Part shown: positions 3,742-60,579 of the stretch, one piece after another
Position numbering within the stretch: the stretch's first letter is position 1
How the letters are laid out: each line of letters opens with the position of its first letter
IMG/VR virus record: IMGVR_UViG_3300042383_000523
Location: 41,757-105,756 of that record
Reading direction: 5' to 3' (one strand)
Source: a virus
Length of the DNA: 64,000 nucleotides
Translations under genes and position numbers: made by a program
Notes under the pieces: generated by a model
Told to the model about the DNA's origin: nothing
Seen by the model: only the letters and a program-made list of their open reading frames with translations
Databases searched by the model: none

Positions 3742-4635
3742 ATGCAAAAACAAAAAGACCACGTAGTAGTTTCATTAAGTGGGGGTTTAGATTCAAGCAC
3801 ATTACTATTACGTTGTTTATCAGAGTACAAAAGTGTTACGGCCATAAGCTTTGACTATGGTCAAAAGCACAGAGTAGAGCTAGAGAGAGCTCAATCATTA
3901 GTAGATTATATTAATTATTGGGAAAACAAAGGTGTAGAAGATGGACAAAAACCAAACTATCACCAAGTTAACTATCGTCAAATCCAATTAAACGGATTAG
4001 TTGATTTATTAGATTCAGCATTAGTAACAGGAGGTGAAGATGTACCAGAAGGCCACTATGCAGAAGATAATATGAAAGCAACAGTTGTTCCTAACAGAAA
4101 CAAAATATTTGCTTCTATTACTCAAGCAGTAGCTTTATCAGTTGCAAATCGTACAGGAGAGACTTGTGATATTGCAATGGGTATTCATGCTGGGGATTTT
4201 TCGATTTATCCGGATTGTAGAGCTGAATTTAGAGATGCTGATGATAATGCTTTCCGTTTAGGAAATTGGGGAGCTGAAAAAGTAGGATATTTTACTCCAT
4301 ATCTTGAAGGTAACAAATTTACAATCTTACAAGATGGAGAATTATTATGTGAAGAATTAGGTCTTGAATTTAATGAAGTTTATTCAAGAACTAACACCTC
4401 TTACAAACCAATCTGGATTCCGATACCTGAAGAAAACTACACAATTATGGGAACTACAACCTATGGAGGAAGATGGTACTCAGATTATAAATCAGCTTCA
4501 TCAGTTGAAAGAGTAGAAGCATTTATTAAATTAGGAAGACCTGATCCAGCTCCTTATGCAGACGAAACAGGACCAGTAACATGGGAACATGTAGTAACAG
4601 AAGTAACAAAAGTATTAGATAACCATAACAATTAA
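3742..4635 (+). CDS. queC: QueC-like 7-cyano-7-deazaguanine synthase (zinc-cysteine-less)
   Basis: A 297-residue ATP-dependent synthase of the PP-loop family. SGGLDSSTLL at 13-22 is the PP-loop, followed by AISFDYGQKH near 35-44 and the PNRNKIF and MGIHAGDFSIYPDCR motifs. QueC converts 7-carboxy-7-deazaguanine through an amide to preQ0. Normal QueC ends with four zinc-binding cysteines (SCY then CGxCxxC). Here the matching stretches are TSYKP at 219-223 and SDYKSASS at 247-254, with no cysteine. The protein is also about 70 residues longer than usual. It may stop at the amide, or fold without zinc. Confidence 0.88.
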   Translation: MQKQKDHVVVSLSGGLDSSTLLLRCLSEYKSVTAISFDYGQKHRVELERAQSLVDYINYWENKGVEDGQKPNYHQVNYRQIQLNGLVDLLDSALVTGGEDVPEGHYAEDNMKATVVPNRNKIFASITQAVALSVANRTGETCDIAMGIHAGDFSIYPDCRAEFRDADDNAFRLGNWGAEKVGYFTPYLEGNKFTILQDGELLCEELGLEFNEVYSRTNTSYKPIWIPIPEENYTIMGTTTYGGRWYSDYKSASSVERVEAFIKLGRPDPAPYADETGPVTWEHVVTEVTKVLDNHNN

Positions 4636-13458: not shown

Positions 13459-13698
13459 ATGAAACCAATCTTTGTAATCCAAATGCCATTAGGCACTCCT
13501 GCTGAGATTTTAGAAAAAGCATACGATCAAGTACATAGTAATGGTATAAGTGAAGATTATCACGTACTTCTTACTATAGGTAATGATTCAACAGCAACTT
13601 TTAAATGCTTTAATTCTTCATATACTAAAGAAGAGTATGCTAAATTAGAACAATTAATAAACGAAATAAATAAAGATTATGTCTCTAAAGAGAATTGA
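13459..13698 (+). CDS. Hypothetical protein (79 aa)
   Basis: 79 residues, first gene after the promoter at 13405. Mixed alpha/beta, no clear motif. It overlaps the queE start by 20 nt. Confidence 0.6.
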   Translation: MKPIFVIQMPLGTPAEILEKAYDQVHSNGISEDYHVLLTIGNDSTATFKCFNSSYTKEEYAKLEQLINEINKDYVSKEN

Positions 13699-14458
13699 AG
13701 ATTATAACAAAACACTTCCAATTGTAGAGCTTTATACAGCAGTACAGTCAGAAGGAAGTAGAGCAGGTTATCCAACAGTAGTAATCAGAACAACAGGTTG
13801 TACTCACAGATGTTGGTTCGGAGATGGTGGATGGTGCGATTCTTGGTATACAAGTATTCATCCTGAAAAAGGACATATTAGTTTCCAAGACATTATTAAC
13901 ATGTACGATAAAAATCCTCACATCACAGAGATGATGCTTACAGGAGGATCACCCACAATGCACCCTGCATTAGTAAATGAATTAACACATTTTGCACATG
14001 AAAGAAATATTTTCATTACAATTGAGACCGAAGGAAGTCATTTTCTTGAAACAGATTACCCGATTAATCTACTATCAATCTCCCCTAAGTTCAGCAATTC
14101 TGTCCCTAAAGTTGGCATTGCAACACCTCAAGGAGACATTACAGATGAAAGAATGATTAAACAACATAATAAGTTAAGACTTAATTATGATGCAATTTCT
14201 AAATCAATTGCTTACCATTCTGATTATCACTTAAAACCAGTATGGGATGGTGAAGATCAAGACGCATTAGAAGAAATAATGGGTTGCATTAAAATATTAG
14301 ATATACCGCAAGACAAAGTATGGTTCATGCCAGCTGGTGATTCAAGAGAGGCTTTATTTAAATCATACCCTAAAATGTTTGATTGGGTGAGAGATAACGG
14401 TTATAGATTGACCTGGAGACCCCATATTATTGCATTTGAAGATCAAAGAGAAGTATAA
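13679..14458 (+). CDS. queE: QueE 7-carboxy-7-deazaguanine synthase (radical SAM)
   Basis: 259 residues. A radical-SAM core with cysteines C41, C45 and C53 (GCTHRCWFGDGGWC) spaced CX3CX7C, longer than the usual CX3CX2C, as QueE variants allow. VELYTAVQSEGSRAGYPTV is the typical QueE N-terminus, with EMMLTGGSPT as the SAM-binding GGE-like motif and SISPKFSNS after it. It converts 6-carboxytetrahydropterin to 7-carboxy-7-deazaguanine. It is co-transcribed with folE and completes the pathway with queD and queC. Confidence 0.92.
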   Translation: MSLKRIEDYNKTLPIVELYTAVQSEGSRAGYPTVVIRTTGCTHRCWFGDGGWCDSWYTSIHPEKGHISFQDIINMYDKNPHITEMMLTGGSPTMHPALVNELTHFAHERNIFITIETEGSHFLETDYPINLLSISPKFSNSVPKVGIATPQGDITDERMIKQHNKLRLNYDAISKSIAYHSDYHLKPVWDGEDQDALEEIMGCIKILDIPQDKVWFMPAGDSREALFKSYPKMFDWVRDNGYRLTWRPHIIAFEDQREV

Positions 14459-14661
14459 TGACATTAAGAGAAGCCCATTTAAACGAAATAGATGTACTAA
14501 ACACCCTATGGTGGATGTTGAGTAATCAAAAAATTAATCTAGGTGATGTAAAATTTCATGCCCAAAGTTTGGATCTTGAAATAGAATTTATTACATTTGA
14601 AGGATATAGATTTACAAATAAAGATAAAACAATTATTTATTCTTATGGCAGACAACAATAG
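14458..14661 (+). CDS. Hypothetical protein (67 aa)
   Basis: 67 residues coupled to queE (TAATG) and overlapping folE by 17 nt. No motif recognised. Confidence 0.6.
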   Translation: MTLREAHLNEIDVLNTLWWMLSNQKINLGDVKFHAQSLDLEIEFITFEGYRFTNKDKTIIYSYGRQQ

Positions 14662-15343
14662 AAAGAAAATCCACAACGATTTAGAAGTGGTACAAGTAGG
14701 TTTTGCAAATGGTGTTGCACCTGGTTTTCCTTTAACTGATCTTCAAAAACAGCATATGATTGAAGAGGCAACTGAAGCATACGGCCAGTTTTTAACAGCA
14801 TTAGGTTGTGATTGGAAAAATGATCCAAACAGTTCTGATACACCAAGACGTGTAGCTAAAGCATACGTTAATGATTTATGGAAAGGTAGATACACAGAAA
14901 TGTCTGAAATTACTTCATTCCCATCAGACGGTTATGATGGTATTATAATTGAAAGAAACATTCCATTAACTTCAATGTGTTCACATCACCATCAAACAAT
15001 TGGAGGAGTAGTTCATATTGGTTATATAGCTGGAGAACATGGTCAAGTAATTGGTTTATCTAAACTAAACAGAATTGTTGAATTATTTGGTCGTAGAGGA
15101 GCTATTCAAGAACAATTAACATCAGCTATTCATAACGCTGTAAATAAGATTACTGAAGGTAATTTAGGTGTTATTGTTACTATAGTTGGAACTCATAACT
15201 GTGTATCTTGTAGAGGTGTTAAACACCAAGGGGCAGCAATGGTTACTACTAAAGCATCAGGTGCTTTTAGAGATGATACTAATAATGCTCGTAAAGAGTT
15301 CTTTGATTCATTAAAGATTAATAACGGTGGACATAATATCTAA
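14645..15343 (+). CDS. folE: GTP cyclohydrolase I (FolE)
   Basis: 232 residues from the internal ATG at 14645. A longer in-frame start at 14597 would lie deep in the previous gene, so I prefer 14645. The GTP cyclohydrolase I signature is present: TSMCSHHHQTIGG with C112 and H114/H115 for zinc, then GLSKLNRIVELFGRRGAIQEQLT and the late CVSCRGVKHQGA. It makes dihydroneopterin triphosphate from GTP, feeding QueD. Confidence 0.93.
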   Translation: MADNNRKKIHNDLEVVQVGFANGVAPGFPLTDLQKQHMIEEATEAYGQFLTALGCDWKNDPNSSDTPRRVAKAYVNDLWKGRYTEMSEITSFPSDGYDGIIIERNIPLTSMCSHHHQTIGGVVHIGYIAGEHGQVIGLSKLNRIVELFGRRGAIQEQLTSAIHNAVNKITEGNLGVIVTIVGTHNCVSCRGVKHQGAAMVTTKASGAFRDDTNNARKEFFDSLKINNGGHNI

Positions 15344-41554: not shown

Positions 41555-42419
41555 TACATTAGCAACGTTACATATAATGTGGTATGAAAGTCAAATGATT
41601 AATGAAACTCTTGACTCTATACAACAAGCAATATCGAATGCTCAACATCCTGTACAACTGATTCTATGTTTGAATTCACAAACATATATCGAGAAACCAG
41701 ATGAAGGTTTTATCCCAGAACAAATGTTTGATGTGTTTTTAAATCATCCTGTATTAAAAGATGCAATTATACTTAGAAAAACAGATAATGACCCTTTTTA
41801 CAATATTGGAGATTGGACCAGAGAAATTTATGGACCCGGATATGAAGCTAAGTATACTGTTTGGTTAGAAAGTGATTGTTTAGTACCTGAAGATTATTTC
41901 TTTCTTTTAGAAAATATTAATCTAGATCATCCTCATCTTATATCGTTAGCTAATAGAAAAATGTGGGATTCTACTTGGGATGAAGTAGAACACCCTTACA
42001 TACAACAAATTCCAAGAACAGGACCTCCTGAAGAACCTCAAAGAAACACTCCTGAACCTTTTGGAGTAGGACATTATATAAATCAAAAAGATTTAAATAA
42101 ATTTAACAAACAGTATGAACCTGTTTTAATTAAATTATCTCAACCTAAAGTAGATGGCGCTATGGCTGCTGTATCTAATAATTTTCCTTATCCGTTTATA
42201 ACAGAAGGTGTTCATTTGGGTGGTCATGATTATTACATGGAATTGTTTATGAAAAAGAATAATATTCCTCAATACCATATGCCTACTAGATTAAAAGGAC
42301 ACAATTGTTCACATCCTAAAAAACGATTAGGAACAAGTACACCAAGAGGAGGAGAAGTATATAAAAAATACGAAAAACAATGTAAAGAACTTATTCATAA
42401 ATTAATATTTAATACTTAA
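41544..42419 (+). CDS. GT-A-like glycosyltransferase
   Basis: 291 residues. QHPVQLILCLNSQTY and YTVWLESDCLVPEDYF (acidic ESD motif) indicate a GT-A nucleotide-sugar site. Late GGHDYYMELFMKKN gives the C-terminal catalytic helix. It overlaps the preceding gene by 11 nt. Confidence 0.75.
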   Translation: MKYNTLATLHIMWYESQMINETLDSIQQAISNAQHPVQLILCLNSQTYIEKPDEGFIPEQMFDVFLNHPVLKDAIILRKTDNDPFYNIGDWTREIYGPGYEAKYTVWLESDCLVPEDYFFLLENINLDHPHLISLANRKMWDSTWDEVEHPYIQQIPRTGPPEEPQRNTPEPFGVGHYINQKDLNKFNKQYEPVLIKLSQPKVDGAMAAVSNNFPYPFITEGVHLGGHDYYMELFMKKNNIPQYHMPTRLKGHNCSHPKKRLGTSTPRGGEVYKKYEKQCKELIHKLIFNT

Positions 42420-48793: not shown

Positions 48794-48877
48794 GGAAGAC
48801 ATCCGGCTGGATCAGGAGCGACTCTTGAAAAGTCGTAGCAGGTAACACTGTTGTGGGTTCGAGTCCCACGTCTTCCT
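48794..48877 (+). tRNA. tRNA-Ser(UGA)
   Basis: Acceptor GGAAGAC/GTCTTCC, anticodon loop CTTGAAA, long variable arm, T loop TTCGAGT. No encoded CCA. Confidence 0.92.
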
Positions 48878-48883
48878 CAATAT

Positions 48884-48955
48884 TGGCTTATAGTGTAACG
48901 GTTAGCACAAAACACTTTGACTGTTTTAGTCTAGGTTCGAATCCTAGTAAGCCAA
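48884..48955 (+). tRNA. tRNA-Gln(UUG)
   Basis: Acceptor TGGCTTA/TAAGCCA, anticodon loop CTTTGAC, T arm CTAGG-TTCGAAT-CCTAG. Confidence 0.93.
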
Positions 48956-48964
48956 CAATAATTT

Positions 48965-49040
48965 CTGGTAGTAGAGGAGTCCGGTCTATCTCGCTCGCCT
49001 TGGACGCGAGAGCACGCAAGTTCGAATCTTGCCTACCAGA
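48965..49040 (+). tRNA. tRNA-Pro(UGG)
   Basis: Acceptor CTGGTAG/CTACCAG, anticodon stem-loop CTCGC-CTTGGAC-GCGAG, T arm GCAAG/CTTGC. Confidence 0.93.
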
Positions 49041-49046
49041 CAAATT

Positions 49047-49119
49047 GCCTTCGAAGCTCATGTGGACGGGCACCGGGCTTTTAACTCGGGGGTAGTTGGT
49101 TCGAGGCCAACCGGGGGTA
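49047..49119 (+). tRNA. tRNA-Lys(UUU)
   Basis: Anticodon loop CTTTTAA, T arm GTTGG-TTCGAGG-CCAAC. The acceptor GCCTTCG/CGGGGGT relies on three G-U type pairs. Confidence 0.85.
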
Positions 49120-49167
49120 CAATCAAGTGGTTAATACTAAACAATGGATTACAAAGGAAGTATATTT

Positions 49168-49238
49168 GCCTCGTTGGCGTAATGGGAGCGTATTTCTTTT
49201 ACATGGAAATGGCAGTAGTTCGATTCTACTACGAGGTA
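49168..49238 (+). tRNA. tRNA-Val(UAC)
   Basis: Acceptor GCCTCGT/ACGAGGT, anticodon stem-loop TTTCT-TTTACAT-GGAAA, T arm AGTAG/CTACT. Confidence 0.9.
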
Positions 49239-49246
49239 CAAAAATT

Positions 49247-49327
49247 GGGGACTAAAAGTCGTTCGGATACGACAGCGGGACTGTAAATCTCGTCCAATTG
49301 GGAGTGGTTCGAGTCCACTAGGCCCCA
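49247..49327 (+). tRNA. tRNA-Tyr(GUA)
   Basis: Anticodon stem-loop CGGGA-CTGTAAA-TCTCG, extended variable arm, T arm AGTGG/CCACT. One A-G mismatch in the acceptor. Confidence 0.9.
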
Positions 49328-49332
49328 CAATT

Positions 49333-49405
49333 GGACCTTTGGTATAGCTGGTGCGTACGCTAGTCTGAAGAACTAGAGGAGTAGGTTCGATTCCTACAGG
49401 GTCCA
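49333..49405 (+). tRNA. tRNA-Phe(GAA)
   Basis: Acceptor GGACCTT/AGGGTCC, anticodon stem-loop CTAGT-CTGAAGA-ACTAG. Confidence 0.93.
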
Positions 49406-49410
49406 CAACC

Positions 49411-49482
49411 GGGTTTGTCGTATAAAGGTTATTACGGATGACTGTTAATCATCTTATGGAGGTTCGATTCCTCCCAGGCCCG
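49411..49482 (+). tRNA. tRNA-Asn(GUU)
   Basis: Acceptor GGGTTTG/CAGGCCC with G-U pairs, anticodon stem-loop GATGA-CTGTTAA-TCATC, discriminator G. Confidence 0.92.
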
Positions 49483-49490
49483 CAAAAATT

Positions 49491-49562
49491 GCTCCTATAG
49501 TAGAATGGTTAGCACACATCTCTGATAAGGATGAAATGGAAGTTCAATTCTTCCTAGGAGTA
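49491..49562 (+). tRNA. tRNA-Ile(GAU)
   Basis: Acceptor GCTCCTA/TAGGAGT, anticodon stem-loop CATCT-CTGATAA-GGATG, T arm GGAAG-TTCAATT-CTTCC. Confidence 0.92.
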
Positions 49563-49570
49563 CAAAAAAT

Positions 49571-49690
49571 GGTTCCTAAGATGAGGGTTTGTATTAGCGC
49601 TAAATGATACAACTCTGAACTTTAGCATAATGGTTTGCGATTCTGTTTAGCGATGGAATGGAAGAGTGGGTTCGACTCCTACAGGAATTA
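49571..49690 (+). tRNA. Oversized tRNA-like element (120 nt)
   Basis: GGTTCCT (49571-49577) pairs with AGGAATT (49683-49689), and a T arm GTGGG-TTCGACT-CCTAC sits in the right place. The body is about 45 nt too long and contains GCTAAA/TTTAGC self-pairing. A D-arm-like TAGCATAATGG lies near 49623-49633. Possibly a tRNA with an insertion between acceptor and D arm. No anticodon can be assigned. Confidence 0.45.
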
Positions 49691-49696
49691 CAAAAT

Positions 49697-49781
49697 GGAA
49701 AGTAAACTAACGAGGTGTTAGGATGCCCTGCTAAGGCAATCGCTCGATAAAACGGGTTCGTTTCGAATACGATGCTTTCCT
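49697..49781 (+). tRNA. tRNA-Ser(GCU)
   Basis: Acceptor GGAAAGT/GCTTTCC, anticodon loop CTGCTAA, long variable arm, T loop TTCGAAT. Confidence 0.88.
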
Positions 49782-49786
49782 CAAAC

Positions 49787-49856
49787 GCCGACTTGATCAG
49801 GTGATCGAAAATATCTCATAAGTATTTTCAGAGTGGATCGTTACCACTAGTCGGTA
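49787..49856 (+). tRNA. tRNA-Met(CAU), unusual T loop
   Basis: Acceptor GCCGACT/AGTCGGT, anticodon stem-loop AATAT-CTCATAA-GTATT. The T loop reads ATCGTTA instead of TTCRANN. First of three CAU tRNAs; one could be an isoleucine tRNA after modification, or the initiator. Confidence 0.78.
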
Positions 49857-49860
49857 CAAA

Positions 49861-49937
49861 GCTAAAGTGGTGAAATTGGTAAACACTCCCATCGAGAGAT
49901 GGTGCGGATTTTGTAGGTTCGAGTCCTACCTTTAGTG
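49861..49937 (+). tRNA. tRNA-Leu-like, anticodon uncertain (possible GAG)
   Basis: Acceptor GCTAAAG/CTTTAGT, Leu-style D arm GTGGTGAAATTGGTAAACAC, T arm GTAGG/CCTAC. The anticodon hairpin is CCAT-CGAGAG-ATGG, a 6-nt loop, or CCATC-GAGA-GATGG. Confidence 0.6.
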
Positions 49938-49942
49938 TATAT

Positions 49943-50014
49943 GGTGTTTCTAGCTTATTGGTAAAGCGCTTGACTGTGAATCAGGAGAACAGGGTTCGAT
50001 ACCCGGTAACACCC
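49943..50014 (+). tRNA. tRNA-His(GUG)
   Basis: Anticodon stem-loop CTTGA-CTGTGAA-TCAGG, 5' GG and a discriminator C that allow the G-1:C73 pair of tRNA-His, T loop TTCGATA. Confidence 0.88.
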
Positions 50015-50019
50015 AACAC

Positions 50020-50092
50020 ATCCCTGTGGTGAAATGGTAAACACAACGGGCTTAAACCTCGTAAGCTGCTGGTTCGACTCCAGTCAGGGGTA
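50020..50092 (+). tRNA. tRNA-Leu(UAA) with short variable loop
   Basis: Acceptor ATCCCTG/CAGGGGT, Leu-style D arm, anticodon stem-loop ACGGG-CTTAAAC-CTCGT. The variable region is only five bases (AAGCT), although bacterial tRNA-Leu is class II. Confidence 0.82.
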
Positions 50093-50096
50093 CAAA

Positions 50097-50189
50097 ATTA
50101 AAGTGGCGGAATTGGTAGACGCAAGTGATAAGCGGTAACTCGGATGAAGTCAACTCAGTTACGTACAGGTTCGAGTCCTGTCTTTAATT
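50097..50189 (+). tRNA. Leu-like tRNA element, anticodon unresolved
   Basis: Acceptor ATTAAAG/CTTTAAT and T arm ACAGG-TTCGAGT-CCTGT are good, with a Leu-style D arm GTGGCGGAATTGGTAGACGC. The 42 nt between D and T arms hold GTAACT/AGTTAC pairing but no clean 7-nt anticodon loop. Confidence 0.5.
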
Positions 50190-50195
50190 TTAATT

Positions 50196-50267
50196 GGTCT
50201 TATAGTTTAATTGGAAAAACTTATCGCTACGAACGATAGAACGTAGGTTCGACTCCTACTAAGACCT
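50196..50267 (+). tRNA. tRNA-Arg(ACG)
   Basis: Acceptor GGTCTTA/TAAGACC, anticodon stem-loop TATCG-CTACGAA-CGATA. Confidence 0.93.
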
Positions 50268-50272
50268 CAACT

Positions 50273-50344
50273 GCCCGTATAGTTTAATCGGAAGAACTAA
50301 ACGCTTCTAACGTTTCAGTCCTGGTTCGAGTCCAGGTATGGGTT
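50273..50344 (+). tRNA. tRNA-Arg(UCU)
   Basis: Acceptor GCCCGTA/TATGGGT, anticodon stem-loop AAACG-CTTCTAA-CGTTT, T arm CCTGG/CCAGG. Confidence 0.93.
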
Positions 50345-50350
50345 CAAAAT

Positions 50351-50419
50351 GCGTCACAGGCTAAGGTAGCCAAATGGATTCCAACCCCATAGGACAGAGT
50401 TCGATTCTTTGGTGGCGCG
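50351..50419 (+). tRNA. tRNA-Trp(CCA)
   Basis: Acceptor GCGTCAC/GTGGCGC, anticodon loop TTCCAAC, discriminator G. Confidence 0.88.
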
Positions 50420-50512
50420 CAGAAGACGGAGAACAGAGTAAGGATTAAATTCCGTTAGGCTATCCCTTACCAGTTTCTCCTGAAGAAATTATTAATTTAA
50501 AAGCAAGTTATC
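50420..50512 (+). other. Structured spacer before HNH gene
   Basis: GTAAGGAT and ATCCCTTAC arms (about 50439-50482), inside GGAGAAC ... GTTTCTCC, suggest a further hairpin-rich RNA between tRNA-Trp and the HNH gene. No tRNA fold and no reading frame. Confidence 0.4.
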
Positions 50513-51019
50513 ATGAGTAAGTATCAAAAAGCACTAGTAGTAGATGCCAGCTTTATCGCAAGATCAGTTATAAGTACAGAAAGAGCTTTCGTGATTTCTT
50601 ACAAAGGTAATGCTGAAGTGATAGCTGAACATCCAGAAACATTTAATCTGTACAATCCAGAACTAACAATTTATAAACCTTCTATTATTAGAGTGTTTAC
50701 ATATGTAAAACATAATATTCAAAAGGTACCTCTAACAAGAGAGAATATTTACCGAAGAGATAATTTTGAATGTGTGTACTGTGGATGTTCAAATCAAAAA
50801 ATATTAACATTAGACCATGTTATACCTCAATCAAAAGGAGGAAAAGACGCTTGGGATAATTTAGTAACAGCATGTCGTCCATGTAATCATGAGAAAGCAG
50901 ATTTAACATTAGAGGAATATGGCAAGGAAATCCCAGAACCAAAAAGACCTCACTACTTAATGTTAATGAGAACTATGACACACATACCAAGAGAATGGGA
51001 ATCATTTCTATTCTTTTAG
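50513..51019 (+). CDS. HNH endonuclease
   Basis: 168 residues. The C-terminal half is a complete HNH core: RRDNFECVYCG, LTLDHVIPQSKGG, WDNLVTACRPCNHEKAD. This is the TIGR-type HNH common in phages and close to Cas9/McrA-style zinc HNH folds. The N-terminal 85 residues are a beta-rich region that may bind nucleic acid. It lies inside the tRNA array and probably spreads as a free-standing nuclease. Confidence 0.9.
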   Translation: MSKYQKALVVDASFIARSVISTERAFVISYKGNAEVIAEHPETFNLYNPELTIYKPSIIRVFTYVKHNIQKVPLTRENIYRRDNFECVYCGCSNQKILTLDHVIPQSKGGKDAWDNLVTACRPCNHEKADLTLEEYGKEIPEPKRPHYLMLMRTMTHIPREWESFLFF

Positions 51020-51029
51020 TAAAGTAAGT

Positions 51030-51061
51030 TTGGAAAACTAAAAATAAGTTCATATATTTAG
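51030..51061 (+). promoter_or_regulatory. Promoter of the second half of the tRNA array
   Basis: TTG 51030-51032, 20-nt spacer, TATATTTAG 51053-51061. The first tRNA downstream is at 51154. The 132-nt stretch from 51022 holds nothing else that I recognise. Confidence 0.72.
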
Positions 51062-51153
51062 GTATAAGAAAGAAATATCACCTACTACAAAACGGCGCGC
51101 GAAACAATAGAATCCCGACTTGTACTATCTGGCAGGTCAGATTAGGTGAATAG

Positions 51154-51225
51154 GGGCAATTGGTCGATTGGTTTAGGCACAGGATTGCAAACTCTGTTAG
51201 GTTGGTTCGATTCCAACATTGCCCT
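51154..51225 (+). tRNA. tRNA-Cys(GCA)
   Basis: Acceptor GGGCAAT/ATTGCCC, anticodon loop TTGCAAA, T arm GTTGG/CCAAC. Confidence 0.9.
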
Positions 51226-51320
51226 CATTGAAGGTTCGACCCTCTACCAAATGTGTTACACCCACAGATGGATACTAAGAGGGAGCTACCGATTGATAAG
51301 TGGTCGCACACGCGACAAAT
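51226..51320 (+). ncRNA. Structured non-tRNA element between tRNAs
   Basis: CCCTCT (51240-51245) pairs with AGAGGG (51278-51283), and GTCGC-ACAC-GCGAC (51303-51316) is a perfect hairpin. A stray GGTTCGACC motif occurs at 51233. No cloverleaf fits. Confidence 0.4.
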
Positions 51321-51394
51321 GCCCGAGTGGTGGAATTGGCAGACACGCTAGACTTAGGATCTAGATATTGAGAGTTCGAGTCTCTCCTTGGGTA
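51321..51394 (+). tRNA. tRNA-Leu(UAG) with short variable loop
   Basis: Acceptor GCCCGAG/CTTGGGT, Leu-style D arm, anticodon stem-loop CTAGA-CTTAGGA-TCTAG, T arm GAGAG/CTCTC. The variable region is only ATATT. Confidence 0.88.
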
Positions 51395-51398
51395 CAAA

Positions 51399-51465
51399 TT
51401 AGAGTTAGCTTATAGTAAAGCAGCAGGGGCTAACCTGCAGAACGGATACGAAAACCGGCTCTAAT
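51399..51465 (+). tRNA. Aberrant tRNA-like element
   Basis: Acceptor TTAGAGT/GCTCTAA, D-stem GCTT/AAGC without the GG of a D loop, anticodon-position hairpin GCAGG-GGCTAA-CCTGC with a 6-nt loop, and no TTCRA T loop (ATACGAAAA instead). 67 nt long. Probably a tRNA mimic or decayed tRNA. Confidence 0.45.
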
Positions 51466-51471
51466 TAATTT

Positions 51472-51545
51472 GCTTCTGACGCACAAATGGTGGTGCACTG
51501 GATTTGTAACCCAGAATAGAGTCGGTTCGATCCCGTCCAGAAGCT
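51472..51545 (+). tRNA. tRNA-Thr(UGU)
   Basis: Acceptor GCTTCTG/CAGAAGC, anticodon loop TTTGTAA in stem CTGGA/CCCAG, T loop TTCGATC. Confidence 0.87.
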
Positions 51546-51706
51546 CAGCAGTCATTTGAATTAGCACTAGGACAATGACTATCAACGGAGGAAGCTAATC
51601 TCACGGTTGGTCCTGTAGGTTGTGGTTACCCGTAAATCCACATAAAGAGACTCCTGCCAGGTAAAGTAGGTGGATGGTCCGGTTTTGGACTAAGCTTTAC
51701 CAAACT
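51546..51706 (+). ncRNA. Structured RNA between tRNA-Thr and tRNA-Gly (about 160 nt)
   Basis: AGTCATT/AATGACT (51550-51556 with 51574-51580) interleaves with TTAGC/GCTAA (51561-51565 with 51594-51598), a pseudoknot arrangement. TGTGG/CCACA (51621-51625 with 51638-51642) and GGTAAAG/CTTTACC (51660-51666 with 51695-51701) follow, the latter enclosing GTCC/GGAC. No reading frame and no cloverleaf. Confidence 0.5.
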
Positions 51707-51780
51707 GCAACATTCGCCTAGTAGGTATGGCACCACACTTCCAATGTGGAATAAGGCCGGTTCGAGACCGGCATGTTGCT
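51707..51780 (+). tRNA. tRNA-Gly(UCC)
   Basis: Acceptor GCAACAT/ATGTTGC, anticodon stem-loop CCACA-CTTCCAA-TGTGG, T arm GCCGG/CCGGC. Confidence 0.93.
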
Positions 51781-51837
51781 CAATCCAACTTTTGCATTAG
51801 GGTGGAAGGCTATAATATTTATAATAAAATATTAAGT

Positions 51838-52254
51838 ATGGAAACTTTAAAAAAATGTATAAGTTGTAAAGAAGATAAACATTTAAATGAATTTGCCTAT
51901 AGTAAAGGTAAACCTAGAGAAAAATGTAAAGCATGTCTTAAAGAATATATGAATTCTCATTATAAAAGTAATAAAGATTCATATAAGGATTATGTTAAAA
52001 AAAGAAAAAAAGAATTAAAAAATTGGTATAATGAATATAAATCCAATTTAAAATGTGAAAAATGTGGAGAAAACCATCCCGCAGTTTTAGATTTTCATCA
52101 TATTAATTCTAATGAAAAAGATTTTAGTATAGGTACAGCTATGGGGGTAGGAAATTCTATTGAAACTATCTTAAAAGAAATTTCAAAATGTATGATTTTA
52201 TGTTCAAATTGTCATAGAAAGTTACATTATGAAGAAAAAAATAAGTTGCTATAG
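51838..52254 (+). CDS. HNH endonuclease overlapping tRNA-Glu
   Basis: 138 residues from ATG 51838; the frame runs upstream into tRNA-Gly but that part is not coding-like. The N-terminal zinc motif KCISCKEDKHLNEF ... CKAC parallels the HNH gene at 3021. The C-terminal HNH reads CEKCGENHPAVLDFHHIN ... CSNCHRKLHYEEK. Its last ten bases overlap the 5' acceptor strand of tRNA-Glu, a placement typical of homing enzymes at tRNA genes. Confidence 0.85.
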   Translation: METLKKCISCKEDKHLNEFAYSKGKPREKCKACLKEYMNSHYKSNKDSYKDYVKKRKKELKNWYNEYKSNLKCEKCGENHPAVLDFHHINSNEKDFSIGTAMGVGNSIETILKEISKCMILCSNCHRKLHYEEKNKLL

Positions 52255-52316
52255 TGAAGGGGTTAACACGTATCACTTTCTATGATAAGGCGAGGGTTCG
52301 AATCCCTCTAGCAATA
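52245..52316 (+). tRNA. tRNA-Glu(UUC)
   Basis: Acceptor GTTGCTA/TAGCAAT, anticodon stem-loop TATCA-CTTTCTA-TGATA with U at position 37 instead of a purine, T arm GAGGG/CCCTC. The 5' ten bases are shared with the HNH gene. Confidence 0.85.
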
Positions 52317-52391
52317 CAGAGCTCTTTATTCGTATTAGGAGGAATAGCTTAATCAGCTTCTAGATTTGACGACTCGGAAAGACGAGTAACT
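52317..52391 (+). other. Hairpin-containing spacer
   Basis: ACTCG-GAAAGA-CGAGT near 52372-52387 and TAGGAG/CTTCTA near 52336-52362 form hairpins. No tRNA and no frame. Confidence 0.3.
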
Positions 52392-52463
52392 GGGGCTATA
52401 GTATAACGGCTATTACAATGGTTTTGCAAATCATAAATTGGAGTTCGATTCTCCATAGCTCCA
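52392..52463 (+). tRNA. tRNA-Ala(UGC)
   Basis: Acceptor GGGGCTA/TAGCTCC, anticodon stem-loop ATGGT-TTTGCAA-ATCAT. CCA follows directly, the only one in the array with an encoded CCA. Confidence 0.92.
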
Positions 52464-52482
52464 CCAATTGTAAATCACTGGT

Positions 52483-52544
52483 AATCAGCGGTGATGGATA
52501 TAAAACTATCGAGGACTTAAATGTATGTAGGATAGCTGCTGATT
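52483..52544 (+). ncRNA. Small structured RNA (62 nt)
   Basis: AATCAGC (52483-52489) pairs with GCTGATT (52538-52544), and CTATC (52506-52510) with GATAG (52531-52535). It has tRNA-like size but no T or anticodon loop. Confidence 0.45.
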
Positions 52545-52549
52545 AAACT

Positions 52550-52621
52550 GGTCTATTGGTCCAGGGGAATGGATGCCTGCCTGTCACGTAGGAGACCCGG
52601 GTTCGAATCCCGGATAGACCG
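52550..52621 (+). tRNA. tRNA-Asp(GUC)
   Basis: Acceptor GGTCTAT/ATAGACC, anticodon stem-loop CCTGC-CTGTCAC-GTAGG, T arm CCGGG/CCCGG, discriminator G. Confidence 0.94.
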
Positions 52622-52630
52622 CTTATAAAC

Positions 52631-52700
52631 TGCGTTAAAGTGTAAAGGTTGCATTCCGGTCTCATAAGCCGGAGGGGTGGTTCGAGTCCACGCTACGCTA
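52631..52700 (+). tRNA. tRNA-Met(CAU), mismatched acceptor end
   Basis: Anticodon stem-loop CCGGT-CTCATAA-GCCGG, T loop TTCGAGT. The acceptor TGCGTTA/CTACGCT has a 1-72 mismatch and two more mismatches. A 1-72 mismatch is an initiator trait, but the three G-C pairs of the initiator anticodon stem are absent. Confidence 0.7.
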
Positions 52701-52705
52701 CAAAG

Positions 52706-52804
52706 GACTAAATGGCGGTGTCAGGCACCCACTGCAGAGGGTACAAAGAAGAACCTGCTTTATATGCCTGTGAGATAGCATCTCGCCGGATAACACATTT
52801 AGTC
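52706..52804 (+). ncRNA. Structured RNA with perfect 8-bp closing stem (99 nt)
   Basis: GACTAAAT (52706-52713) pairs with ATTTAGTC (52797-52804). Inside are GGCG/CGCC (52714-52717 with 52784-52787), AGGCA/TGCCT (52723-52727 with 52765-52769), ACCC/GGGT and GAGAT-AGC-ATCTC. The nested multi-stem fold is too regular for chance. Confidence 0.6.
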
Positions 52805-52805
52805 A

Positions 52806-52993
52806 TCTTAAAGCCGGTTTGACACTCCGCTTACGGGAGGTCAGTTTCTGGAGTAGAAACTGGGTTGTAGCAGTAAGATCTTTAAAAGTTTGTGATGTAC
52901 AAAGTATGGGTTTTGCCTGCAAAGCGTGTTTACTGCTTATAAACACAACTTGAAAGTATAGAAAGGGGTGTAGGTCCGCTTTAACCGAACCCC
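52806..52993 (+). ncRNA. Multi-hairpin RNA region
   Basis: CTCC/GGAG (52825-52828 with 52836-52839), CAGTTTC/GAAACTG (52842-52848 with 52856-52862), TTAAAG/CTTTAA (52808-52813 with 52880-52885), GTGTTTA/TAAACAC (52926-52932 with 52940-52946) and GGGGT/ACCCC (52965-52969 with 52989-52993). No frame; one or two RNA domains. Confidence 0.5.
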
Positions 52994-52999
52994 TAGTAC

Positions 53000-53074
53000 G
53001 TCCTTGTAGCTAAATTGGTGAAGGCGCTCGCCTCATAAGCGAGAGATATGTGGGTTCGATCCCCACCGAGGACA
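53000..53074 (+). tRNA. tRNA-Met(CAU)
   Basis: Acceptor GTCCTTG/CGAGGAC, anticodon stem-loop CTCGC-CTCATAA-GCGAG, T arm GTGGG-TTCGATC-CCCAC. The most canonical of the three CAU tRNAs. Confidence 0.92.
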
Positions 53075-53103
53075 CAATTAAAATTTTATCCAATATTTTA
53101 ACA

Positions 53104-53127
53104 AAAGGCTTGCTTATGCAGGCCTTT
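53104..53127 (+). terminator. Hairpin overlapping a promoter
   Basis: AAAGGC (53104-53109) pairs with GCCTTT (53122-53127). It ends the tRNA array transcript; the promoter TTG at 53110 is in the loop. Confidence 0.6.
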
Positions 53128-53144: not shown

Positions 53145-53795
53145 ATGAAAATAGTATTAGAAAAAGGACAACAATTGTTCTTCACATCAGACACACATTA
53201 CTCACACTCGAACATTTGTAGTGCTACTACAAACTGGTCAGTGAATGATGGGTATGCTCGTAAATTTGATTCATTACAAGATATGAACCAAAGACTAGTT
53301 GATAACATTAACAACATGGTCGGAGAAGATGATATCTTAATCCACTTAGGAGACTGGTCATTTGGAGGATTTGATAAGATTGAAGAATTCAGAAGTCAAA
53401 TCAACTGTAAAAACATTCACTTGACATTTGGAAACCACGATCACCACATTGAAAGAAACAAAGAAGGAGTACAGAGATTATTTTCCTCAGTACAGCAATA
53501 CTTGAGATTAGAAGTAAGAAGACCGATCAACAAAGCAACAACTGAAAAGTTTACTTTTGTTTGTATGCACTATCCAATTGCGTCATGGCATGATATGAAC
53601 CAAGGAGTAATTCACTTGCATGGACACGTTCATTTACCGTCAGATATAAGAGTAGCAGATGGTAAAGCAATGGATGTTGGAGTAGATGGAAATGGTTTAG
53701 AGCCAATTTCATTAGACGAGGTATTATCGTTGATGGAAAAACAGCCAATAAGAAAGTTAGAGTTGCCAAAGGATCATCATGAAAAGAGAATATAA
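53145..53795 (+). CDS. Metallophosphoesterase
   Basis: 216 residues of the calcineurin-like fold: FTSDTHYSH (DxH), ILIHLGDWSFGG (GD), TFGNHDHHIE (GNHD), CMHYPIASW and LHGHVHL (GHxH) are all present. It hydrolyses phosphomonoesters or diesters. One nt before the kinase gene and just upstream of an RNA ligase, it may supply end-healing (2',3'-cyclic phosphate or 3'-phosphate removal). Confidence 0.92.
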   Translation: MKIVLEKGQQLFFTSDTHYSHSNICSATTNWSVNDGYARKFDSLQDMNQRLVDNINNMVGEDDILIHLGDWSFGGFDKIEEFRSQINCKNIHLTFGNHDHHIERNKEGVQRLFSSVQQYLRLEVRRPINKATTEKFTFVCMHYPIASWHDMNQGVIHLHGHVHLPSDIRVADGKAMDVGVDGNGLEPISLDEVLSLMEKQPIRKLELPKDHHEKRI

Positions 53796-54182
53796 ATGAA
53801 AGAGTTATTTTTATTAAGAGGATTACCTGGATCAGGTAAATCAACATTAGCAAAGTCCTTAGGAGGTTCACATATGGAAGCTGATAAGTATTTCGAATAC
53901 GAAGGTAAGTACGAATTTGATGCATCCAAATTAAAAGAAGCTCATGCTTGGTGTCAATTCATTGTAGAGGAAGAAATGAATTATTTAAAAGAAGAAAGAA
54001 TCGTAGTATCAAACACATTCACTCAGGAATGGGAAATGCAACCATACTACGATCTAGCAGAAAAGTACGGATACAGAGTTTACTCTTTGATTGTAGAAAA
54101 TAGACATGGAGGAGTAAATGAGCATGGAGTACCAGAAGAAAAGTTAGTACAAATGAAAAATAGATTTGAAGTAAAGTTATGA
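53796..54182 (+). CDS. P-loop polynucleotide kinase-like protein
   Basis: 128 residues. ELFLLRGLPGSGKSTLAKSL (Walker A) and the EADKYFE acidic site match the kinase domain of T4 Pnk/NEDD4-binding-protein-2-like enzymes. It probably phosphorylates RNA 5'-OH ends. It stands between the phosphoesterase and the RNA ligase. Confidence 0.82.
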   Translation: MKELFLLRGLPGSGKSTLAKSLGGSHMEADKYFEYEGKYEFDASKLKEAHAWCQFIVEEEMNYLKEERIVVSNTFTQEWEMQPYYDLAEKYGYRVYSLIVENRHGGVNEHGVPEEKLVQMKNRFEVKL

Positions 54183-54307
54183 AAAAAGAATGCAAACATG
54201 ACTTCAGAGAATTTTGGAAAATAAACTATCGAGGGACAAGGTTAGTATTAAAAGAAGTTAAATGTATTATGTGTAACAAAATTAAAGAAAATGGAAAATC
54301 AAAATAG
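54179..54307 (+). CDS. Small zinc-finger-like protein (42 aa)
   Basis: A 42-residue frame coupled by ATGA to the kinase and overlapping the ligase by 17 nt. ECKHD near the start and CIMCNK near 32 could hold one zinc. No family recognised. Confidence 0.5.
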   Translation: MKKECKHDFREFWKINYRGTRLVLKEVKCIMCNKIKENGKSK

Positions 54308-55415
54308 TGTTTGCTTTGTAGCAACAATCAAAGAAGTAAAAGCAATTCCAAATGCTGACAACATCGAACAAGTAGTTGTTGGAGGATGGAATGCTATCAC
54401 TAAAAAAGGTGAATTTAAAGAAGGTGACTTAACAGTTATTGCAACTACGGATGCAGTAATTCCAGAAGCATTTTCTGAAAAAATGGGAGTTACTTCTTAT
54501 CTAAGAAAAGGAGGCAGAGTAAGAACTGTAAAATTAAGAGGAGTTTATTCTGAATGTTTAATCATTCCAATGACTTATATACAGGGAGTTAAACGTGTAG
54601 AAGGTGCAGACTGTATGGAGATGTTAGGTATTACTAAATACGAACCACCAGTTAAACAAATTCAACTTGCTTCAGGTAGAAAGATTAAATGGAGAGACAA
54701 TCAGAACTTCCATATCTATTACAAATTCCCAAACCTTAAAAACGTAGCAGGAATGTTTACGGAAGAGGATATGGTTCAAATCACTAGAAAGATTCATGGT
54801 ACAAATGCTAGATATGGTATTGTAAAAAAATCTAAATTATCATTCTGGGATAAAGTAAAAAAATTCTTTAGACTAGCTGATGAGTGGATTGACTATGAAT
54901 ACATTTACGGTTCACATAACTGTGAAAAAGGATCTGACTCTCAAGGATTCTATTCAACTGATGTTTGGAGAACAATTGCTGAAAAATATAGTATTAAAGA
55001 AAAACTTTGGGACCTATGTGATATTCTTGGAACTTATCATGTAGGTGATGGAATTATTCTTTACGGAGAAATTTATGGAGCCGGTATTCAAAAGAACTAT
55101 GAATATGGTTTGAAAGATATTGAGTTCGTAGGATTTGATTTAAAAATGGATAACGAATATCTCTCAACAGATTCAGCTCAATATGAAATAATCAATATGT
55201 TACACTTACCTCACGTAGAAGTACTTTACGAAGGAAAATGGGATCAAGAAATTCAAGATGAGTACACATTTGGACACTTCATCCCAGGAACTAGAGTACC
55301 ACATGAAGGACTTGTAATCAAACATATCACAGGTGATAGAAAGAAAGTAGCTAAAGTAATCAACCCAGATTATTTAATCTACGGAGAAAAACATGATGTA
55401 GGAGATTCTCATTAA
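54291..55415 (+). CDS. RNA ligase with N-terminal OB-like domain (Rnl5/DraRnl-type)
   Basis: 374 residues. The N-terminal 115 or so residues look like the OB domain of Deinococcus-type RNA ligases (VCFVATIKEVKAIPNADNIE). The nucleotidyltransferase core has motif I RKIHGTNARYG with the catalytic Lys, motif IIIa-like LYGEIYGAG, motif IV HEGLVIK and motif V KVAKVINPDYL. It seals 3'-OH/5'-phosphate RNA ends. With the kinase, phosphoesterase and cREC domain it can repair cleaved tRNAs. Confidence 0.9.
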   Translation: MENQNSVCFVATIKEVKAIPNADNIEQVVVGGWNAITKKGEFKEGDLTVIATTDAVIPEAFSEKMGVTSYLRKGGRVRTVKLRGVYSECLIIPMTYIQGVKRVEGADCMEMLGITKYEPPVKQIQLASGRKIKWRDNQNFHIYYKFPNLKNVAGMFTEEDMVQITRKIHGTNARYGIVKKSKLSFWDKVKKFFRLADEWIDYEYIYGSHNCEKGSDSQGFYSTDVWRTIAEKYSIKEKLWDLCDILGTYHVGDGIILYGEIYGAGIQKNYEYGLKDIEFVGFDLKMDNEYLSTDSAQYEIINMLHLPHVEVLYEGKWDQEIQDEYTFGHFIPGTRVPHEGLVIKHITGDRKKVAKVINPDYLIYGEKHDVGDSH

Positions 55416-55426
55416 AATAATTTACT

Positions 55427-55450
55427 AAAGGCTTGGTTTTCCGAGCCTTT
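55427..55450 (+). terminator. 10-bp hairpin terminator overlapping a promoter
   Basis: AAAGGCTTGG (55427-55436) pairs with CCGAGCCTTT (55441-55450) around a TTTT loop. The promoter TTG at 55433 is inside the left arm. Confidence 0.75.
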
Positions 55451-55464
55451 CTTTGTAATTTTAC
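55433..55464 (+). promoter_or_regulatory. Bacteroidota-type promoter (TTG-N20-TAATTTTAC)
   Basis: TTG 55433-55435, 20-nt spacer, TAATTTTAC 55456-55464, serving the 55486 gene. Confidence 0.72.
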
Positions 55465-55485
55465 AAAAGATTTAAAAAACAATCA

Positions 55486-55851
55486 ATGATACCAGGAGCA
55501 CAACCAAAAGTATTAGTAAAACTAAATGATAGTAACGAACTTGTATTAGATGAACAGTTTCTTACATTATTTGAAAAAGAAGTAATGTCACATAACTATA
55601 AATTAGTAAGAGAAAGAGATCAACTAACTAAAACATCAGTAGGAATAAAATGGTTAGAGTTTGATGAAGAAGGAAGATACAAAGCAGACTTTAAAGACAT
55701 TGCTGTTGGAAGAAGTTTATTAATGTCTCCATTCGGACCTTCATTCACTTGGCAAACAACACCAGTAACAGAGATTGTAGAACAAAGAGAAGATTATATT
55801 AAATTTAATACAGAAAATTCTGTATATGAATTGTTTGTTTTATCAAAATAA
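55486..55851 (+). CDS. Hypothetical protein (121 aa)
   Basis: 121 residues. Beta-rich in the C-terminal half (IKWLEFDEEGRYKADFKDI ... SLLMSPFGPSFTWQTTPVTEI). The FTWQTTPVTEI segment recurs in phage proteins of Bacteroidota as I recall, but no function is known. Confidence 0.65.
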   Translation: MIPGAQPKVLVKLNDSNELVLDEQFLTLFEKEVMSHNYKLVRERDQLTKTSVGIKWLEFDEEGRYKADFKDIAVGRSLLMSPFGPSFTWQTTPVTEIVEQREDYIKFNTENSVYELFVLSK

Positions 55852-55866
55852 ATTTCGTATATTTAG
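55835..55866 (+). promoter_or_regulatory. Bacteroidota-type promoter (TTG-N20-TATATTTAG)
   Basis: TTG 55835-55837 within the last codons of the previous gene, 20-nt spacer, TATATTTAG 55858-55866. Confidence 0.7.
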
Positions 55867-55888
55867 ATATTAATTTAAAGTAAAGGTT

Positions 55889-56818
55889 ATGAAAAACATA
55901 CACGTATTACCAACGGAAAATTCAAGTAGATTATCTTACAACAAAGATGGTGTATTAGAATTACACAGACTTCAATGGAGAAAGAATACTCAAAATATCT
56001 ATATCACTTCTGATGAAGAAATTAAAGAAAGAGAATGGTGTACTGATGGAATTTACCTTATACAAGCAACTCCAAAATTAGTAGATGCTCAAGGATTGTT
56101 TGATAGAAGAGATTGGAGAAAAATCATTCTAACAACAGACCAAGAGTTAATCAAAGATGGTGTACAAGCTATTGATGATAAATTCCTAGAATGGTTTGTT
56201 AAGAATCAGAGTTGTGAGTTTGTTGAGATTAAACAAGAATTAGGTGTTTGTCTTAATTGTGAATGGAATTATGATAGTTGTCCAAATGCTAAAGAATGTT
56301 TAAAGGGTAAATACAAAATCATCATTCCTAAAGAAGAACCTAAACTGCAATGTAAAGACTGTAATGACAATTTAACAGATTGTACTTGTATTGAAAATAC
56401 TGTTGATATGAATAAAATAAAAATATACCTAGACGACGTAAGAACACCAGTTGATCCAACTTGGAAAGTAGTTAGAAACTATGAACAATTTGTAGATCAA
56501 ATTACTTATTACGGGTTAGAAAACATTGATATAATTTCATTAGATCATGATTTAGGACCTTCAGCAATGGCTGAATGGCACTCAAACGTGTATCACAACT
56601 ACGAATTAAATTATGATAACATTGAAGAGAAAACTGGAATGGATTGCACTAAATGGTTGGTCAATCAGTGGCTTGATGGATCTCCTGTTGTTGATGTTGT
56701 AATACATTCTGCAAATGCAGTTGGTAGTGCCAATATGATGGGGTACATAAACAACTACAGACACATTCACAGATTACCTCAGAATTGTGTAAGAGTACAA
56801 ATTGAACATACAGTATAA
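55889..56818 (+). CDS. Fusion of a phage unknown domain and a cyclic-phosphate-processing receiver (cREC)
   Basis: 309 residues. The N-terminal half (1-140) is a domain frequent in Bacteroidota phages (DRRDWRKIILTTDQELI, AIDDKFLEWFVKNQSCEFVEI). A Cys-rich linker (about 124-170, CLNCEWNYDSCPNAKEC, CKDCNDNLTDCTC) follows. From about 176 it matches the cREC family: IKIYLDDVRTPVDPTW, ISLDHDLGPS, TGMDCTKWLVNQW, VIHSANAVGSANMMG. cREC is predicted to act on cyclic phosphates in RNA repair, matching the ligase and kinase genes upstream. Confidence 0.82.
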   Translation: MKNIHVLPTENSSRLSYNKDGVLELHRLQWRKNTQNIYITSDEEIKEREWCTDGIYLIQATPKLVDAQGLFDRRDWRKIILTTDQELIKDGVQAIDDKFLEWFVKNQSCEFVEIKQELGVCLNCEWNYDSCPNAKECLKGKYKIIIPKEEPKLQCKDCNDNLTDCTCIENTVDMNKIKIYLDDVRTPVDPTWKVVRNYEQFVDQITYYGLENIDIISLDHDLGPSAMAEWHSNVYHNYELNYDNIEEKTGMDCTKWLVNQWLDGSPVVDVVIHSANAVGSANMMGYINNYRHIHRLPQNCVRVQIEHTV

Positions 56819-59666: not shown

Positions 59667-59881
59667 TTTGGATTTTATTATTGTACGTTTTACCATTTAT
59701 AATATGTTGTGTATTAGGTTATTACATGAGTAAAACTAATGGAGAAACAATGAAAGATTATTTAAACGGTGTTTTATTTTGTTTAATACCTGTTTTTAAT
59801 TTTCTCTTTATAGTAATGATAGTAGGTGAGAATATTAGATCAAATAAATCAATACAAGATTTTTTAAATAAAAAATTATGA
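59663..59881 (+). CDS. Membrane protein, tandem paralogue B
   Basis: 72 residues, the diverged copy of the preceding gene, overlapping it by 4 nt and the next one by 4 nt. Two membrane segments. Function unknown. Confidence 0.65.
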   Translation: MIWILLLYVLPFIICCVLGYYMSKTNGETMKDYLNGVLFCLIPVFNFLFIVMIVGENIRSNKSIQDFLNKKL

Positions 59882-60579
59882 GAATAACATTCATATCAGA
59901 TACACATACACGACAAGGACAAATACCATATTCAGATTTACCTGGTGGTGATTTATTAATCCATGCTGGCGATATTATGAATTCAGGATACAATAAAAAT
60001 GATATTATTGATTTCCTGTACTGGTATGATTCAACCCCAGGTTATGACAAGAAAGTATTCATAGCGGGTAATCATGATAGAATGTTTGAGAATCATCCGG
60101 AAGATGTAAAGGAATGGCTATCTAAATTTCCAAATATAATATATCTACAAGACGAGGCATATGAAATATATGACTTAGAAACAGATAAAAGTATTAAACT
60201 TTACGGATCACCTTGGCAACCATGGTTTTATGATTGGGCGTTTAATGTTGAGAGAAATAGTTTAAAATTATCAGGTAAGTGGGAAGGTATTCCTGACGAC
60301 ACAGACATATTAATCACACACGGTCCAGCTTGGGGTTCTGTTGATACAGTAGAAGGACGTCCTTGGGACAATTTAGGATGTGAGTTATTGGCAGAAAGAA
60401 TCATGAGATTCAGACCAAAGATCCATGTATGTGGGCATATTCATTCAGGATATGGAATTGAAACCATAGACAACATTCATTACATAAACGCATCAGTATT
60501 AGACGAAAGATACGAATACACTCAGAAACCATGGAATATAGAATGGGATCCTGAAACAAATGAAATGATTATAAAATAA
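59878..60579 (+). CDS. Metallophosphoesterase
   Basis: 233 residues. FISDTHTRQG, LIHAGDIMN, IAGNHDRMF, ITHGPAWGS and VCGHIHSGYG complete the calcineurin-like signature. It resembles the MPPED-type cytosolic phosphodiesterases. A second phosphoesterase in the window, separate from the RNA-repair set. Confidence 0.9.
   Translation: MRITFISDTHTRQGQIPYSDLPGGDLLIHAGDIMNSGYNKNDIIDFLYWYDSTPGYDKKVFIAGNHDRMFENHPEDVKEWLSKFPNIIYLQDEAYEIYDLETDKSIKLYGSPWQPWFYDWAFNVERNSLKLSGKWEGIPDDTDILITHGPAWGSVDTVEGRPWDNLGCELLAERIMRFRPKIHVCGHIHSGYGIETIDNIHYINASVLDERYEYTQKPWNIEWDPETNEMIIK

Follow-up and report, generated by a model that had tools for sequence, protein, structure and literature searches.

A probable three-enzyme RNA-repair unit with an Rnl5-like ligase beside the tRNA array of a large Bacteroidetes phage

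We describe a probable three-enzyme RNA-repair unit, made up of neighbouring genes for a metallophosphoesterase (MPE), a P-loop kinase and an Rnl5-like RNA ligase, in a 64,000-nucleotide stretch (which we refer to as the window; positions 41,757 to 105,756) of IMG/VR virus record IMGVR_UViG_3300042383_000523. The record has 105,756 bases and comes from a large virus of Bacteroidetes bacteria, and among named phages its nearest kin are the immuto phages of Flavobacterium. The unit resembles a split version of the logic of Pnkp plus a ligase; that the genes serve RNA repair of some kind is highly likely, and that their substrate is tRNA cut by a host defence is the somewhat favoured reading. The original prediction placed a phosphoesterase, a kinase, an RNA ligase whose N-terminal domain is OB-like and a cREC domain at 53145–56818, adjoining a tRNA array. 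All four are present there on the plus strand, and the array, as called by ARAGORN, ends at 53075, with 70 bases from the end of the last tRNA to the start of the MPE gene. The further claim that end-healing and end-sealing occur together at this locus is backed by the protein folds, by catalytic residues that are conserved, by linkage of the genes and by the exchange of ligase types between phages.

The MPE gene (53145–53795, plus strand; PF00149, E 7e-8; phrog_547, 1e-44) retains a complete set of metal ligands (D16, H18, D70, N97, H142, H161 and H163), and we propose from its sequence that the product would remove a 3' or 2',3'-cyclic phosphate. Directly abutting it (53795/53796) is the kinase open reading frame (53796–54182, plus strand; AAA_33, 3e-11; phrog_2071, 3e-41), the whole 128-aa product of which is kinase with no fused HAD phosphatase. 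The best PDB matches of the kinase profile include T4 Pnkp, Pnkp1 and Clostridium Pnkp, and the predicted structure (mean predicted local distance difference test score, pLDDT, 88.8) aligns with T4 Pnkp over 128 of 128 residues (Z 14.9), with Clostridium Pnkp at Z 13.9 and other P-loop kinases lower. The P-loop (G9-x4-G-K15-S/T) and D30 are kept in about 90 homologues, and the modelled enzyme is proposed to phosphorylate 5'-OH ends. The ligase gene (54291–55415, plus strand; PF21189, 5e-18; PF09414, 3e-17) encodes an N-terminal OB domain (residues 10–94) followed by a nucleotidyltransferase domain (162–357) with intact motifs (KIHG at 167, YGEIYG at 258, EGLVIK at 339, and K355), and K167-x-H-G, G259-E260, E339-G340 and K355 are kept in nearly all of about 80 homologues. 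A profile of 21 homologues matched Naegleria NgrRnl at E 7e-53 and T4 Rnl2 weakly (2e-4); against PF09511, the T4 Rnl1-type family, the ligase gave no match at E up to 1. The NCBIfam equivalog TIGR02306 (Deinococcus-type) spans nearly the full length but scores 103.6 bits, under its cut-off of 151.15, and we therefore use only the name Rnl5-like for an enzyme that, by sequence, resembles Rnl5-type ligases and not the anticodon-loop type of T4 Rnl1. Pairwise ratios of non-synonymous to synonymous substitution (dN/dS) against six relatives were low for MPE (0.13–0.22), kinase (0.18–0.29) and ligase (0.21–0.36), a range (0.13–0.36) that indicates purifying selection on all three.

Linkage of the three genes recurs widely. 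Among 38 distinct (non-redundant) ligase loci that had sufficient sequence on either side, the kinase was present in 32 (31 of them within 3.5 kb, with a median gap of 440 bases) and MPE in 31, both always on the ligase strand. Of 40 kinase loci, 29 had MPE no more than 3.5 kb away from the kinase. Whole phage records of 126–271 kb carried one ligase each, with the kinase within about 500 bases in five of six and about 8.5 kb away in the sixth. A search of bacterial contigs for a ligase homologue returned a single match, on a contig of a Bacteroidetes metagenome-assembled genome (MAG), and its locus also holds the kinase and MPE; at the DNA level the kinase–ligase stretch had no relatives among sequenced phages. 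The sealing enzyme is exchangeable between loci: of 53 non-redundant kinase loci, 26 carried this ligase, 15 a T4 Rnl1-type ligase (PF09511) in its place, three both and nine neither, some of the last being short fragments. Likewise, eight of ten kinase regions sampled from isolate phages combine MPE and kinase with an Rnl1-type ligase, for example those of Escherichia phages EmilieFrey and rV5, Pseudomonas phage K5 and Vibrio phage Ceto. A constant healing pair with an exchangeable sealer is strong evidence that all of these enzymes act on the same broken ends. Some relatives lack kinase and ligase jointly: in the immuto phages an 89% identical MPE lies beside a few tRNAs, and immuto 2-6A (160 kb) lacks the pair genome-wide, and so does a 167 kb relative, L261. 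At the immuto locus L257 a hairpin of the kind found behind the ligase stands directly behind MPE, as if, judging from the sequence, the kinase–ligase pair had either dropped out or been inserted there.

The unit appears to end at the ligase. A terminator-like hairpin (55427–55450, plus strand; -17.5 kcal/mol, z -4.7) lies directly 3' of the ligase gene, and hairpins with a T-rich tail at most 90 bases from the stop codon follow 30 of 86 ligase homologues, with 0.9 expected, and are rare after the kinase (4/93) and MPE (2/88). From this pattern MPE, kinase and ligase look like one unit ending at the ligase, with cREC outside; predicted Sigma-70-type promoters in the region occurred at the level of shuffled sequence. 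Downstream of the hairpin are a gene for a 121-aa protein of unknown function (55486–55851, plus strand; phrog_38150), loosely associated with the unit, and the gene for a protein with a C-terminal, receiver-fold cREC domain (55889–56818, plus strand; PF20274, 5e-21), which is associated but probably outside the transcription unit. The PF20274 match covers residues 177–289 of a domain at about 176–309, in which D219 and D221 are nearly invariant and residues 182 and 183 are D or E. Its model (mean pLDDT 97.2) had no significant structure match by Foldseek alone, and a second aligner matched receiver domains at Z about 8 to 10.3. Hydrolysis of cyclic phosphates by cREC is a prediction, in the literature as well as here, and its dN/dS is low against close relatives, with one distant pair at 0.42. 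In 31 of 50 non-redundant cREC loci neither ligase type occurs within the fetched stretch, and immuto strain 3-5A keeps cREC at the corresponding site with no kinase or ligase there. We therefore rejected cREC as a firm member, given the many ligase-less cREC loci and the terminator-like hairpin that precedes it: of the four-part cassette first proposed, the MPE, kinase and ligase stand as a unit and the membership of cREC does not. Three elements had gone unmentioned in that proposal, namely the phrog_38150 protein, the post-ligase hairpin and a 170-aa N-terminal extension of the cREC protein. This extension (55889–56410) is a rare fusion, cREC being solitary in immuto 3-5A and most relatives. 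The immuto strains, which belong to one phage species, vary at the site, with cREC in 3-5A and 13-6C and none in 2-6A, so that genes may often be swapped here (53145–56818). A second phosphoesterase (59878–60579) has a PADLOC match, to the candidate defence family PDC-S10 (E 5e-72), and phosphoesterases of this kind are often near cREC (18/37 loci within 3.5 kb).

In the mechanism we propose, a host RNase would leave 2',3'-cyclic phosphate and 5'-OH ends, MPE would clear the 3' end, the kinase would add a phosphate to the 5' end as its family suggests, and the Rnl5-like ligase, again going by family, would seal the break using ATP. The likeliest substrates would be tRNAs, of either host or phage, that a defence RNase of the host cleaves in the course of infection. 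We favour tRNA because of the neighbouring array, the precedent of T4 and the ordinary anticodon loop of the phage tRNA-Lys(TTT), which is unaltered (CTTTTAA); van den Berg and colleagues noted repair ligases in coliphages that have a tRNA-Lys of this sort (PMC10264068). A purpose against PrrC-like cleavage of tRNA, as the original prediction expected, is plausible. Of 80 genomes from the family of the ligase-bearing MAG, 9 encode proteins above the AAA_13 cut-off, and the two proteins examined were far closer to PDC-S06, a PADLOC candidate family, than to PrrC, one of them standing beside a type I specificity subunit. Such remote PrrC-like sequences in possible host relatives at most keep the PrrC idea from being far-fetched.

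Several observations weigh against this reading. T4 Rnl1 repairs the anticodon loop, whereas the window ligase, by its profile and domain matches, is not of the anticodon-loop type. At least five tRNAs lie within 8 kb in just 11 of 26 ligase loci (16 of 30 kinase loci), and the 167 kb genome L261 retains 19 tRNAs, MPE and cREC without a kinase or a PF09414 ligase. T4 Pnkp uses an Arg three residues past its catalytic Asp, where the window kinase has F33 (F in 87 of 92 homologues); R103 or R123 might stand in for it, and because this Arg is missing the exact kinase substrate could differ. As for the 3' end, we know of no characterised member of the MPE family, and its sole significant PDB match is an uncharacterised Aquifex protein. 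One sign that favours MPE as the 3'-end healer is that its gene and HAD_PNKP phosphatase genes tend to exclude each other in the loci (both in 3, MPE only in 40, HAD only in 6, neither in 12; Fisher p 0.015). One MPE lineage lacks the metal ligands (D16N, H18Q, D70N, N97E, H142Y) and still stands beside tRNAs, kinase and ligase; a 2H phosphoesterase gene is present in 16 of 20 of these dead-MPE loci and in 0 of 99 live-MPE loci, a pattern drawn from few, related lineages (5/9 once non-redundant), and the 2H protein has a match to Acb1, an anti-CBASS protein, as well. Together, HAD avoidance and the dead-MPE pattern favour the 3'-end role of MPE in a suggestive way only. Genes without the metal ligands were seen in L015, L017, L033, L034, L037, L022, L040, L070 and L132.

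The kit may instead mend RNA other than anticodon-cut tRNA, such as rRNA, stem-cut tRNA or mRNA, by way of a duplex-nick ligase, which we regard as a minority possibility. Rnl5-type ligases of Deinococcus and Naegleria seal nicks in duplex RNA, the window ligase has their profile and not that of Rnl1, and 11 of 26 ligase loci have zero tRNAs within 8 kb; yet the same kinase and MPE partner Rnl1-type ligases elsewhere, so that the substrates probably overlap, the unit often adjoins tRNA arrays and the phage tRNA-Lys keeps its ordinary loop. We suggest, quite tentatively, that a shared healing pair could be combined with ligases fitted to the type of break, Rnl1 for open anticodon loops and Rnl5-like enzymes for breaks held in a duplex; if true, the phage group of the window faces a defence that cuts structured RNA, and ligase type predicts defence.

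An unlikely alternative is that the targets of MPE and cREC are nucleotide signals of immunity (cyclic nucleotides or derivatives of ADP-ribose) and that the two adjoin the kinase and ligase by coincidence. This explanation would suit the immuto phages, which keep MPE (plus cREC in 3-5A) at the site with neither kinase nor ligase, the Acb1 match of the 2H gene that accompanies dead MPEs, and the prediction by Iyer and colleagues that cREC processes cyclic ADP-ribose besides RNA ends (PMC7824862, PMC9503650), but it sits poorly with the frequency with which MPE is found close to the kinase, and with its occurrence next to both genes in phages that differ widely. Highly improbable is that these are three ordinary nucleotide-metabolism genes, close together only because one phage group inherited them from a common ancestor. 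The genes of the region are all on one strand and the compared loci are related, but gene order varies among relatives of the window locus, the linkage recurs in unrelated Proteobacteria phages with another ligase family, and the exchange of ligases largely refutes ancestry alone. A chance neighbourhood was likewise rejected, on the linkage across divergent phages and the ligase exchange.

The RNA-repair unit we propose has several known counterparts. Nearest are the sets of EmilieFrey, rV5, K5 and Ceto, which share with it the kinase family, the phosphoesterase family and the adjacency of the genes; their ligase is Rnl1-type (PF09511), whereas the window has an Rnl5-like enzyme whose OB domain is N-terminal, and no cREC was detected in the vicinity of the MPE–kinase–Rnl1 set in the sampled isolates, whereas the window has it downstream. 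The T4 pair of Pnkp and Rnl1, which counters PrrC of E. coli, has in common with the unit the 5' kinase fold, an ATP-dependent RNA ligase and the proposed purpose, but T4 Pnkp carries its own HAD phosphatase, where in the window the kinase protein has no other domain, the metallophosphoesterase has a gene of its own and the ligase belongs to a different family. Clostridium thermocellum Pnkp (with Hen1) holds the same three activities in one polypeptide instead of three genes, again with a different ligase family. The ligases DraRnl (Deinococcus) and NgrRnl (Naegleria) have the same order of OB and nucleotidyltransferase domains as the window ligase, which, unlike them, sits in a multi-gene repair unit. 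Iyer and colleagues named cREC and described phage RNA-repair sets of ATP-grasp ligases, kinases, calcineurin-like or HAD phosphatases and cREC (PMC7824862, PMC9503650). Their V5-type example has a sirtuin and a T4-like ligase, whereas the window has the Rnl5-like ligase and a cREC fused to an N-terminal part, with no sirtuin match among the scanned neighbouring genes. In the literature on phage tRNA repair with a phosphoesterase we found nothing closer than PMC7824862, and the MPE–kinase–Rnl1 version is partially annotated in isolated phages. What is new here is the Rnl5-like ligase in place of Rnl1, the prevalence of the unit in a large uncultivated phage group and the evidence from ligase exchange.

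The array itself (48794–53075, plus strand) holds 24 ARAGORN tRNA genes, including the tRNA-Lys(TTT), of which 20 reach the Rfam gathering score. Between the last tRNA and the MPE gene is a hairpin (53104–53127, plus strand; -16.4 kcal/mol, z -5.1) that is a possible terminator or processing site. Bacterial tRNA-Leu normally has a long variable arm. This arm is missing from the tRNA-Leu genes of 74–77 bases at 49861–49937, 50020–50093 and 51321–51395, and short forms make up 138 of 245 tRNA-Leu across the fetched related loci, a redundant set. A 95-base tRNA called as tRNA-Ala(AGC) at 50096–50190 has a long variable arm and a D-arm that suggest a Leu- or Ser-like tRNA. Two more tRNA-like stretches with T-arm motifs, at about 49617–49692 and 52627–52705, went unreported by ARAGORN in the window; at the locus L003 a tRNA-Met is called at the array end, in a comparable place. 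Genes within the array at 50513–51019 and 51727–52254 encode an HNH endonuclease and a protein that resembles a zinc finger and matches nothing in Pfam, possibly homing elements. Elsewhere in the window, genes at 779–1243, 3742–4635, 13679–14458 and 14597–15343 look like 7-deazaguanine-pathway genes, one with a QueD-like match and the others resembling QueC, QueE and FolE annotated in immuto, which suggests modified phage DNA.

The unit extends a known idea of phage counter-defence to a group of uncultivated Bacteroidetes phages, and the comparison of loci shows a sealing enzyme that changes while the healing enzymes stay. A likely function also follows for phrog_547 and phrog_2071, families often labelled just phosphoesterase or ATPase. 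Comparison of the ligase types could show which RNA breaks each of them mends, and hence which host RNases each phage meets.

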